DNA from: Buttiauxella agrestis
Lineage (GTDB): Bacteria > Pseudomonadota > Gammaproteobacteria > Enterobacterales > Enterobacteriaceae
Direction: 5' to 3'
Length of the DNA: 64,000 bases
Assembly (NCBI RefSeq): GCF_900446255.1
Contig: NZ_UIGI01000001.1
Coordinates: 894,763 to 958,762, forward strand
Shown in pieces: positions 24,334-28,082 of the stretch (positions within the stretch are counted from its first letter, which is position 1; every line of letters starts with the position of its first letter). The translations under genes and the position numbers were made by a program. The notes beneath the pieces are model-generated. The model did not search any database, was not told the origin of the DNA, and saw only the letters and a list, made by a program, of their open reading frames with translations.

Positions 24334-25107
24334 GTGGACAAGGTAGTGCTTTCGCCAGAAAAAAAACAATACCAGGAAATTGGTGAGGATCTGCGCGCGC
24401 AAATAATGCAGGGACTGTATCCAGTCGGTTCACGTTTGCCGCCTGAACGTAATATTGCTGAAACCTATGGCGTCAGCCGCACGATTGTTCGTGAAGCGTT
24501 GCTGATGCTCGAACTGCAAGGCACAGTCGATATTCGCCAGGGGTCCGGTGTGTATGTGATGCGCGTTCCGGCAGAAAATGAAGCGGAAGAAGAAGCCTTT
24601 TTCAGTAGCGATATTGGGCCGTTTGAAATGCTTCAGGCGCGTCAGTTGCTGGAAAGTAATATTGCGGCATTCGCCGCAAAAATGGCGACCAAAGCGGATA
24701 TCGACAACCTCAAGCGAATTCTCGAGCAAGAGCAGCGTGCTATCGCGATAAACGATCTGAGCCAGGATAACTGCAAGATGTTCCACCTGGTTCTGGCGGG
24801 CGCTTCGCAAAACCAGATGCTGCTGGCGACGGTGGAAAGTATCTGGCGCCATTTAGACAGCAGCCCAATGTGGCAGCAATTACGGGCGCATATTGATACA
24901 CGCAGCTATCGCCTGAAGTGGCTTGGCGACCTGCAAACTATTCTGGCAGCGCTGCGCCGCCGCGATGTCATGGGGTCATGGCAGGCGATGTGGCAGCATT
25001 TAGAAAACGTCAAAAACAGCCTGCTCGAGCAATCAGATTCCGATGCGCCCGATTTCGACGGCTATCTTTTCGAGTCCGTTCCCATCTTCCAGGGGAAGCT
25101 GATGTGA
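24334..25107 (+). CDS. GntR-family regulator (FadR subfamily), UxuR-like
   Basis: Predicted transcription factor of 257 residues. The N-terminal winged helix reads YQEIGEDLRAQIMQGLYPVG, LPPERNIAETYGVSRTIVRE. An FCD effector domain follows (GPFEMLQARQLLESNIAAFAA ... MWQHLENVKNSLLE, FDGYLFESVP). These regions are very close to E. coli UxuR and ExuR as I recall them. Two positions that normally bind the FCD metal look changed: Cys instead of Asp before MFH, and Leu instead of His in WLGDL. This suggests a different effector. The GTG start follows a weak GGGTGAT. It probably controls the upstream PTS-GH1 genes through the TGGTATACCA sites. Confidence 0.85.
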   Translation: MDKVVLSPEKKQYQEIGEDLRAQIMQGLYPVGSRLPPERNIAETYGVSRTIVREALLMLELQGTVDIRQGSGVYVMRVPAENEAEEEAFFSSDIGPFEMLQARQLLESNIAAFAAKMATKADIDNLKRILEQEQRAIAINDLSQDNCKMFHLVLAGASQNQMLLATVESIWRHLDSSPMWQQLRAHIDTRSYRLKWLGDLQTILAALRRRDVMGSWQAMWQHLENVKNSLLEQSDSDAPDFDGYLFESVPIFQGKLM

Positions 25108-25553
25108 AAATTCTTCCGCTTTTTCAGAAGCCGCAATATGCCGAGCAGGTTACAGACTGGATATGGCAGGCGTTTGGCACTCCTGACAGCCGGGACTTTT
25201 TCGCTTCAATTGTGGCAACCAGCCAGCGGGAAGGGGAGTTGCCTTTAACTTTTGTGGCGGTTGAGGGTAATAAGCTGGTCGGAACGGTTGGGTTATGGCG
25301 CTGCGATTTAATTAGCCGCCAGGATTTTTATCCGTGGTTAGCGGCGTTATATATCGATGAAAACCAGCGCGGACGTGGGCTTGGGGCAATGTTACAACAG
25401 CACGTTATTGAACACGCTCGCACGCTGGGCTATCCGCAGCTGTATCTCTATTCAGCGTGCAAAGATTATTACGAGCGCTTTGGCTGAGAATATATCGGCG
25501 ACGGGCTGGATTACCCGGATAAAGTGGTTCATCTTTATAAATACGTGCTTTAA
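25104..25553 (+). pseudogene. GNAT acetyltransferase with internal stop
   Basis: The frame opens at a GTG overlapping the gntR stop (ATGTGA). It encodes a GNAT fold: VAVEGNKLVGTVGLWR, LAALYIDENQRGRGLG (acetyl-CoA loop), YLYSACKDYYERFG. Codon 128 (25485-25487) is TGA. The same frame then continues EYIGDGLDYPDKVVHLYKYVL to a TAA at 25551. GNATs of this type usually have a Trp or another aromatic at that point, so one TGG-to-TGA change explains the break. Loss of the last 21 residues removes the final beta strand. It could instead be a sequencing error or an active shortened protein. Confidence 0.75.
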
Positions 25554-25571
25554 ACATTTACCACACACTAA

Positions 25572-26021
25572 TTAAGGTTTAGAAACAATAGTTTTGCAGA
25601 TTTCTGGCTTACTGGCGTAATACAGTCCAGGAACGTCCCCTTCCTCGTCACATAACGTGTAACCTAACGCCATTAATCCCAGCGGGATTATCCATGATAT
25701 GACCATGAAAAACACGAAGCATGCAAGACTAAATAATCCCCAGATATTACCAATGAGCGTTCCTTTTTTTAGGCGCTCAACGCCTTTTTGCAGAATTGTA
25801 CGGAATGCGAAAAAAAACAGATAAATATAGGTTGGTGTCGCTCCAATAGCGATGATGATTTTTCCATCATAGATAATAACATTACCTAAAGTAACCAGAG
25901 AGTATAGTCGATATTTCTCAATAAAAAACGTGGAATAATATATCATAATCAAAGATACGGCCATCAAAAAAATACCAGAAAATTTAAAGCCTATCCATTG
26001 TAATTTGGTATATGGTCTCAT
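25572..26021 (-). CDS. Small membrane protein, candidate T6SS immunity protein 2
   Basis: A 149-residue, very hydrophobic protein with three or four predicted membrane segments (about 10-32, 55-75, 92-120). It has a short C-terminal tail with two cysteines (YTLCDEE...PEIC). It is about half identical by eye to the upstream neighbour, aligning from FKFSG to the Cys tail, so the pair is a tandem duplication. It starts on the ATGA overlap with that neighbour's stop. Position after an Hcp gene and a hydrophobic-hairpin protein suggests immunity to a membrane-acting toxin. It may belong to the DUF1240-type small membrane proteins, but this is uncertain. The region is noticeably AT-rich. Confidence 0.7.
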   Translation of the reverse strand: MRPYTKLQWIGFKFSGIFLMAVSLIMIYYSTFFIEKYRLYSLVTLGNVIIYDGKIIIAIGATPTYIYLFFFAFRTILQKGVERLKKGTLIGNIWGLFSLACFVFFMVISWIIPLGLMALGYTLCDEEGDVPGLYYASKPEICKTIVSKP

Positions 26022-26458
26022 TTATTTTCTATCATCATACAAAGTTGCGGATCAGTAACATAGTACACTCTGAGTTTATCCTCATGGCATGAAGTGTAAT
26101 GTAATATCAATAACACAATAGGGATTAGATAGGATGCGACTAGCCCTAAGGCAAAAGAGAGTATGCTAAATACCCCCCAAATCTGTCCAATTACCGTTCC
26201 TTTTTTTAGAGGTGCAATTCCTTTATTTAAAACTGTACGGAGTGCAAAAAAGAACATGTAGATAACCATAGGTATGCCGCCAAGGCAGATAATAACTCTT
26301 CCATTGTATGTTATGATATCACCGAGTGTAATTAATGAATTGATGGCATAGAACTTATAGAAATAAGCCACTAGATAAATGAGGGCCATACTGGCCATCA
26401 TAAGAAATACCCCCGAAAATTTAAATATCAACCAGCGTAAGGTAGTGTATTCTTTCAT
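26018..26458 (-). CDS. Small membrane protein, candidate T6SS immunity protein 1
   Basis: 146 residues with membrane segments at about 11-33, 55-75 and 93-121 and a C-terminal tail holding two cysteines (YTSCHED...PQLC). It starts two bases after the stop of the candidate effector, preceded by GAGGG, and overlaps the next gene by four bases. It is thus tightly coupled to the toxin candidate, as immunity genes are. Paralogue of the following gene. No enzymatic motif is visible. The function is inferred from position and topology only. Confidence 0.72.
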   Translation of the reverse strand: MKEYTTLRWLIFKFSGVFLMMASMALIYLVAYFYKFYAINSLITLGDIITYNGRVIICLGGIPMVIYMFFFALRTVLNKGIAPLKKGTVIGQIWGVFSILSFALGLVASYLIPIVLLILHYTSCHEDKLRVYYVTDPQLCMMIENK

Positions 26459-26460
26459 AC

Positions 26461-27333
26461 TTAATACCCTCTACCTGGTAGTGGAGTTATATATGGAGAT
26501 AAATGTTGGTAGTCCCAGGAACTCATTTTTTGTTGCTCATTTAATGCCTGTTGTATTTTATTTTTGAGTTCTGCAGAAAACCCCAACTCATTATCCAGAA
26601 TGTTAAGCCCTATATTCAGTGCAATGCCTATAAATATTATAAGAATGGCCGTGCCAACTATTGGTGCACTAATCACTGTAAATATGCCACCCGCAATCCC
26701 AATCACAACACTTGAAACAATTATTTTTGCTACGTCCATTGTAATATCAACCAGGAAATCTTTTAGGTGATAATCAGATTTAAATATAAATTCAATCACG
26801 CGAAAGGCTAAAGAGGCATAAATACAAAACTTCATCCCTTTTACTATCGAGTTGGCGACTCCGCGCATCCCAATAGCCATTTCAAGTATTTGTGGGTTTC
26901 TTGCTCCGTAACGGGTACCAGTAAGTATGCGGCGCACGCCAGCATAACCAGTGATTTTTATATATGCCTTGCCATTAATTACGTATTCAATAGCTTTTAT
27001 TTTTAGACAATTAAAGTTGAAGACTAATTTTCCCGCAGGGCTGTAGTAAGTGGTTAATTTGCTGAGGGTGCGAAATCCATCCAGGCCATCTTTAATATTC
27101 CCAGGGCCTAATCGATAGGAGAAGAAATAATCTAAATTACCAAGCAATTCATCTGATACCCCTTGCGCTTCCTCAATAGTTAGCAACATGATGTATCGAC
27201 TCTCTGTAATAAAGCTTTCATTAATTGCAGCCATATCACGCAACACTGGATTCATACTTGGATAGGTTTGAAATTGATGCTCGTCGCGCAAGTAATCATG
27301 TGGCTTCTTCTTTGAATCTCTTAATTCAGACAT
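26461..27333 (-). CDS. Candidate T6SS cargo effector with hydrophobic hairpin
   Basis: I do not recognise a named family. The 290-residue protein has no signal peptide. It has a polar N-terminal part (1-160; LLTIEEAQGVSDELLGNL, YVINGKAYIKITGYAGVRR), a semi-hydrophobic helix (168-184), then two adjacent membrane-length segments at about 202-224 and 226-247, split by SAPIVG. A polar helix and the tail PLPGRGY follow. A long hydrophobic hairpin in an otherwise soluble protein is the hallmark of colicin-like pore formers. The start at 27333 follows a strong AGGAGG; the longer frame is rejected. It lies 30 bases after hcp and directly before two putative immunity genes, so it probably travels with that Hcp. 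Confidence 0.75.
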   Translation of the reverse strand: MSELRDSKKKPHDYLRDEHQFQTYPSMNPVLRDMAAINESFITESRYIMLLTIEEAQGVSDELLGNLDYFFSYRLGPGNIKDGLDGFRTLSKLTTYYSPAGKLVFNFNCLKIKAIEYVINGKAYIKITGYAGVRRILTGTRYGARNPQILEMAIGMRGVANSIVKGMKFCIYASLAFRVIEFIFKSDYHLKDFLVDITMDVAKIIVSSVVIGIAGGIFTVISAPIVGTAILIIFIGIALNIGLNILDNELGFSAELKNKIQQALNEQQKMSSWDYQHLSPYITPLPGRGY

Positions 27334-27363
27334 GACAACCTCCTTATTTATCAAAACTGATAT

Positions 27364-27843
27364 TTAAAAAACGCGATCATTCCACAGACTATACGCACTG
27401 GTACCTGCATCACAATGTTCCCAGGTTATCGTTTCATAGCTGAAGGTGATTTTTTCCTGGGGTTCGGCTCCATTATCCAGAAGATTGTGAGGTACAATGA
27501 ATTCATTATGCGAAATTCGAGCTCCGGTAAGTTTGACTTTATAATAAAGGTTATTCATACCAACCCGGTTGGTACGGTATAAATCCAGATCGCAGACCAG
27601 CATTTCATTATCATTTATCGCTTTGGCTAATAAAGGTGAAGATTTATCAATCGGCTTAATGATCACCATTTCATGATGATTGACGTTTTGTGCACGGGAC
27701 ATAGAATGAGTGACGGCATAAACCATAATCTGGTCGATGTGAGCGATTTGTGCTTTGTTACCAATAGAATCTAATGATGAGCATCCGGCAGAGATCAGTC
27801 CCTGTGTTTGACCATTAACGGTTAAATAGGCTAAGTTTGACAT
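27364..27843 (-). CDS. hcp: Hcp-family type VI secretion tube protein/effector carrier
   Basis: Hcp hexamers stack into the inner tube of the type VI secretion system and carry small effectors in their lumen. The 159-residue protein has the family pattern: LAYLTVNGQTQGLISAGCSS, the middle HEMVIIKPIDKSSPLLAKAI, LYYKVKLTGARI, and the C-terminal ITFSYETITWEHCDAGTSAYSLW. It begins after AAGGGA. No other T6SS structural gene is in the window, so this is an orphan hcp with its own cargo, relying on a T6SS elsewhere. The 239 bases before it to galR are AT-rich and hold the promoter. Confidence 0.9.
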   Translation of the reverse strand: MSNLAYLTVNGQTQGLISAGCSSLDSIGNKAQIAHIDQIMVYAVTHSMSRAQNVNHHEMVIIKPIDKSSPLLAKAINDNEMLVCDLDLYRTNRVGMNNLYYKVKLTGARISHNEFIVPHNLLDNGAEPQEKITFSYETITWEHCDAGTSAYSLWNDRVF

Positions 27844-28046
27844 ATTATTCCCTTAATATTATTGATGTAATTTATATGATAAAGATTTGCAAGTTTATTC
27901 ACCCGCAATCCTGGTATCAATATAAATAAAATGCAATCATAATATCTTGAAAGGTTTTGCTACTTTATTTTTATTTGTTATATGTTTTATTAATTAATAA
28001 TTAATCTGGTATTTAAAATGCGAATGGATAAGGTTGCTTATTATTT

Positions 28047-28071
28047 CCAGCCAGATGTTTTATCTGGCTGG
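28047..28071. terminator. Perfect hairpin next to the galR stop
   Basis: CCAGCCAGAT/ATCTGGCTGG with loop GTTTT lies 12 bases past the galR stop. On the plus strand it is followed by TTTTATTTT; on the minus strand by a mixed A/T run. It probably ends galR transcription and shields galR from opposing reads. Confidence 0.65.
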
Positions 28072-28082
28072 TTTTATTTTCT

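Follow-up and report, generated by a model that had tools for sequence, protein, structure and literature searches.

Tme/Tmi modules and the arrangement of the locus

The closest described systems are the Tme toxins and their Tmi immunity proteins; the members tested by Fridman et al. (2020, PMC7046647), Tme1 and Tme2, come from Vibrio parahaemolyticus. According to the account given there, Tme proteins are toxic in the periplasm, depolarising and permeabilising the membrane, and carry a conserved C-terminal region in which a DxxK motif is followed by a hydrophobic helix and then by D. In about 70% of Tme, a T6SS-related gene lies immediately upstream, and the Tmi immunity family consists of DUF1240 and DUF1240-like proteins. 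The mechanism of Tmi protection was named in this founding paper as future work.

The locus analyzed here lies in a 64,000-nucleotide stretch of Buttiauxella DNA, closest to B. agrestis (the window, meaning the whole of that stretch). It shares with Tme/Tmi, as described in PMC7046647, the C-terminal DxxK–hydrophobic helix–D arrangement, a T6SS-related gene upstream of the toxin (here hcp, at a distance of 30 bases) and DUF1240-like immunity downstream. Unlike the Tme/Tmi members tested in that paper, the window toxin has an hcp of its own in front, with no T6SS part seen around it, and is accompanied by two immunity genes. The immunity arrays formed by effector displacement in Vibrio cholerae, as outlined by Kirchberger et al. 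(2017, PMC5361080), likewise have a new pair in front and another immunity gene behind; in the window, unlike in those arrays, a homologous toxin would have had its tail exchanged, and the hcp in front of it has no T6SS cluster seen around it. The ion-selective pore effectors Ssp6/Sip6, likened here by their description in PMC6889166, also combine an antibacterial membrane toxin with membrane immunity, and some of them lie beside an orphan hcp; Ssp6 itself is described as unlinked to T6SS genes, and Sip6 has two predicted helices, whereas each of the window immunity proteins has several hydrophobic segments. Judged from sequence, the kind of module appears to be the known Tme/Tmi-like one, and the new element would be a member that follows an hcp around which no T6SS cluster was seen. 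We regard it as likely that the locus is an auxiliary T6SS module with an Hcp-carried Tme toxin, a cognate immunity gene (imA), a retained second immunity gene (imB) and a toxin tail exchanged together with imA.

Four minus-strand genes form the locus: hcp (tssD; 27364..27843), encoding the 159-residue T6SS tube protein, the presumed toxin carrier; tme (26461..27333), encoding the predicted toxin; and imA (26018..26458; 146 residues) and imB (25572..26021; 149 residues), encoding membrane proteins A and B. Their order and the gaps of 30, 2 and −4 bases, given in the initial annotation, were reproduced from the open reading frames. The tme product is 290 residues long when started at ATG and 297 residues long when started at an upstream TTG. 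The locus had also been called AT-rich compared with its flanks, which was confirmed by a G+C content of 0.368 (26–27 kb) and 0.365 (27–28 kb) vs. 0.42–0.56 elsewhere in the window (1-kb steps). In agreement with the same annotation, no other T6SS part was found among the 19 of the 51 other ORFs with at least 150 residues, scanned at E 1e-10; these neighbors were metabolic, regulatory and other non-T6SS genes.

An AT-rich leader between galR and hcp (27844..28082, minus strand) is, by its position, the presumed promoter region. Consensus promoter matches between 25480 and 28120 were not enriched (9 vs. 11.0 in shuffles), and terminator-like sites numbered 6 vs. 2.1 expected. An acetyltransferase-like frame on the plus strand (25104–25487), which we take to be GNAT, adjoins imB and ends at an in-frame TGA (25485–25487); the frame was longer and uninterrupted in three relatives.

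The predicted toxin and its presumed connection with Hcp

An Hcp domain was present in the 159-residue protein (PF05638, E 2.2e-20; TIGR03344, E 1.7e-57; PDB Hcp3 chain, E 2e-19). The 290-residue protein, consisting of an N-terminal part and a Tme-like C-terminal region, was covered by no library profile and had no Pfam match above the cut-off. Weak PHROG and NCBIfam matches to it (E 0.08 and 0.06, respectively) were judged to be due to chance. The hydrophobic hairpin, previously estimated at about residues 202–247, was recovered by hydropathy analysis: 19-residue segments with a mean of at least 1.6 covered residues 193–248, with peaks at 193–211 and 217–235. A DxxK motif made up of D200 and K203 falls within the first part of the hairpin, which ends with D247. 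These three residues, together with G121, G155, G158 and R178, did not vary among the 32 proteins aligned (the window toxin plus 31 of 34 relatives; L007, L013 and L023 were omitted); in a second set of 28 proteins, D200 and K203 were invariant and D247 was conserved in at least 90%. By the published signature and gene context, the 290-residue protein is predicted to be a Tme-family membrane toxin, with Tme1 and Tme2 compared by description only.

The hairpin had been described as colicin-like. Its hydrophobic character stood, while a relation to colicins was found neither by Pfam nor by sequence search of the PDB (no related solved structure at E 1) nor by fold search. AlphaFold2 models of the whole toxin and of its last 191 residues had mean pLDDT values of 59.6 and 64.4, respectively, and neither of these weak models gave a Foldseek match at E 0.001; since the models were weak, the empty fold search is an absence of support for a colicin pore domain and no disproof of it. 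A true pore-forming domain of the colicin type would account for the hairpin near the C-terminus and for the long helices predicted around it in both models. Against these features stand the three empty searches, and we consider such a domain very improbable.

Of 392 family genomes, 52 carried a relative of the toxin, spread over 30 of 154 genera. The nearest named genomes by toxin identity were Buttiauxella agrestis ATCC 33320 (81%), B. gaviniae (77%) and B. izardii (71%); within Buttiauxella, the toxin was matched in 7 of 12 genomes, in one case by no more than a fragment. Many distant relatives matched only from residues 97–111 to near residues 255–277, as would be expected if the toxin region is C-terminal and can be joined to different N-termini. 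In the Lelliottia relative (L033), an N-terminal PAAR was fused to Tme inside a T6SS cluster. Origin from a phage was rejected (no match in the phage collection; only three viral-contig loci, at 31–39% identity), as was origin from a plasmid (13 plasmid records, none reaching 60% identity).

The initial annotation expected homologues of the hairpin protein to be accompanied by hcp and by the small membrane proteins. An adjacent hcp was found in 22 of 55 relatives: in 18 of the 20 close ones, defined as having at least 44% identity over at least 200 residues (a threshold chosen after the loci were inspected), and in 4 of the 35 distant ones. The expectation regarding hcp was thus borne out by close relatives and not by distant ones. 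The two close relatives without an adjacent hcp were L050, the second toxin in an hcp-headed array, and L046, which adjoins rhaT. Co-occurrence with membrane proteins was confirmed, a DUF1240-matching protein (E 0.01) following the toxin in 41 of 53 relatives, or in 43 of 55 first-downstream ORFs when the two window proteins are included. These ORFs were drawn from 53 of 56 relative loci with all near-identical loci kept; L056 (without a full toxin), L043 (an 85-residue remainder only) and L069 (without a downstream ORF) were omitted. The proposal of an inner-membrane toxin with membrane immunity behind hcp gained support from the Tme signature and the DUF1240-like proteins, as far as sequence comparison can indicate.

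TssB was encoded in 50 of 52 toxin-positive and in 182 of 340 toxin-negative genomes (Fisher p 1.5e-10; lists matched by eye), the latter including reduced genomes with neither toxin nor TssB. Neither TssC nor TssK was matched in the two toxin-positive genomes without TssB (G001 and G263), which had 8 and 4 hcp matches, respectively. The former, the nearest genome to the window and taken to be B. agrestis, also contained five Phage_GPD (VgrG-like) matches. With TssB, TssC and TssK all unmatched in this nearest genome, delivery of the toxin by the window's own strain can only be presumed. The hcp and Phage_GPD matches left there without these three components would suit a module that is a decaying remnant in a lineage without its former T6SS, retained at most for immunity, and the disruption of the immunity genes in B. 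gaviniae (see below) points the same way; however, all four window genes are open and TssC was found in 10 of 12 Buttiauxella genomes, so that we consider this explanation unlikely.

According to the preferred reading, an auxiliary T6SS module, the Hcp tube ring would bind the 290-residue protein and carry it into a neighboring bacterium. In the target periplasm, the hairpin of the Tme region would insert into the inner membrane, dissipating its potential and making it leaky, as suggested by what has been published on Tme1 and Tme2 activity, and the downstream DUF1240-like membrane proteins, to judge by their family, would shield the producer.

Probable immunity genes and a proposed exchange of the toxin tail

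The products of imA and imB matched DUF1240 (PF06836) with E 1.1e-4 (23.3 bits) and E 1.2e-3 (19.9 bits), respectively, both below the Pfam cut-off of 24.3 bits, and are therefore called DUF1240-like only. A C-terminal C...C pattern was shared by the family: both cysteines were present in 54 of the 55 first-downstream proteins, the exception being a 79-residue frame. The homology of the two membrane proteins, claimed in the initial annotation, was verified by two-sequence blastp (48% identity over 148 columns, E 1e-50). ImB was 90% identical to the sole immunity protein at the B. agrestis locus. A recent local duplication was rejected on these two identity values. The two genes may go back to an older local duplication, since imA was sister to the imB group in the tree (support 98/91).

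The genes differed in their distribution. DNA of imB was found at the locus in all four species compared (the window and B. agrestis, B. gaviniae and B. izardii), whereas B. agrestis and B. izardii lacked the DNA of imA, which the window shares with B. gaviniae; the only full-length alignment of imA was with B. gaviniae (0.786 identity, frame disrupted).

Informative sites in the same four species were sorted into those grouping the window with B. agrestis, with B. gaviniae or with B. izardii, given here in this order. The first grouping prevailed in galR (45, 0 and 3), the leader (13, 3 and 2), hcp (30, 1 and 1), toxin residues 1–100 (17, 3 and 0) and, by a smaller margin, residues 101–180 (7, 0 and 5), as well as in imB (23, 6 and 3), the downstream DNA (35, 5 and 2) and gntR (34, 1 and 1). 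In the toxin tail (residues 181–290; 26464..26793, minus strand), the counts were 2, 31 and 3, and the change of grouping ran through all of its parts: residues 181–205 (0, 3 and 1), 206–250 (0, 14 and 2) and 251–290 (2, 14 and 0). The ratio of window–gaviniae to window–agrestis sites was 31:2 in the tail and 2:109 in hcp, galR and gntR together (Fisher p 9e-27; tail vs. imB, p 2e-9), p values that overstate the case because linked sites are not independent. The tail thus has a history different from that of the DNA around it.

At hcp and at the flanking genes galR and gntR, DNA identity between the window and B. agrestis was 0.97; in the tail, it fell to 0.685. Between B. agrestis and B. izardii, it was 0.855 in the tail, 0.856 at hcp and 0.866 at galR (0.856–0.901 over hcp, galR and gntR), as vertical inheritance would give; since this value is maintained where the window–agrestis identity falls, the recipient is more likely to have been the window lineage. 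Between the window and B. gaviniae, identity was 0.752 in the tail, below the 0.842–0.898 at galR, hcp and gntR, which argues that B. gaviniae itself was not the donor. Residues 206–250 of the window protein were about equally distant from B. gaviniae (0.58) and B. agrestis (0.60), which speaks against a simple picture of two types. The tails of the window and B. gaviniae therefore resemble each other only loosely, and their grouping rests largely on the likeness of B. agrestis to B. izardii; placing the two in one tail type is an interpretation.

As imA accompanies one of the two tail groups and is missing from the other, and imB DNA occurs in all four species, imA is probably the cognate antidote, partnering the present tail, and imB is probably a retained antidote, kept against kin with the other tail. 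The earlier claim that the tandem pair protects the producer thus keeps its support from the DUF1240-like immunity family, but the genes do not appear equivalent, only imA tracking the tail. There is a good case, as read from these comparisons, for an exchange of the tail with one immunity gene while the second was retained. The tail and imA would have been swapped together by recombination between conserved sequences upstream (hcp and the head of the toxin) and downstream (imB and its flank).

Alternatively, imA and imB could both act against the same toxin, as a matter of dosage or as a heteromer, after local duplication, the absence of imA from B. agrestis and B. izardii being an incidental loss. 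Their position as sister branches, their 48% identity, their 4-base overlap, the tandem immunity genes found elsewhere (e.g., Rahnella L031, L049 and L053) and the limited likeness of the window and B. gaviniae tails agree with this, but imA tracks the tail grouping and imB DNA is constant, in four species only; we find this alternative somewhat unlikely. As for the exchange, it is possible, at slightly less than an even chance, that the locus forms a two-type polymorphism among Buttiauxella species, in which a membrane-inserting tail and one immunity gene are swapped as a unit within an otherwise vertical block, the window type is immune to both toxins, and tail–immunity cassettes of relatives supply the variation. 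In that case, the hairpin tail would be the seat of specificity.

In B. gaviniae (L043, 6876–7340), imA was frameshifted and imB stopped early, with hcp and the toxin open, which reflects either decay or an assembly error. If immunity were strictly required, such broken genes would not be expected, barring an assembly error or a toxin that is not delivered.

Extra partial toxin frames were found in some Rahnella, Trabulsiella and Superficieibacter loci: L045 (two), L050, L053 and L055. Four of the five frames were followed by a recognized immunity gene, the exception being that of L055. Arrays of toxin, immunity genes, partial toxin frames and further immunity genes stood behind a single hcp in L045, L050 and L053. 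It is plausible that such frames in relatives serve as a store of tails.

Allelic variation and the relative in Escherichia coli

The window and B. agrestis provide natural toxin alleles in a nearly identical background (97% at hcp, galR and gntR) with one immunity gene present or absent, so that the part of a Tme toxin recognized by its immunity protein becomes open to experiment. No DNA match to the window locus was found in E. coli genomes. The E. coli relative of the toxin had the gene order tssM–hcp–toxin. Its neighbor YkfM, an uncharacterized protein of E. coli K-12, is, on sequence grounds, probably an orphan Tme immunity protein, and the window locus extends the suggested immunity role to it.

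YkfM had no Pfam match at E 0.001; its two cysteines were present. Of 5426 complete genomes, 2535 matched the DNA of the E. coli hcp, toxin and ykfM (L034, 4415–6344) across 80% or more of that stretch. In K-12 MG1655 (NC_000913.3, 238257–239084; L088), ykfM was kept beside the pseudogene yafU, and the shared DNA, 98.9% identical, started inside the toxin gene.
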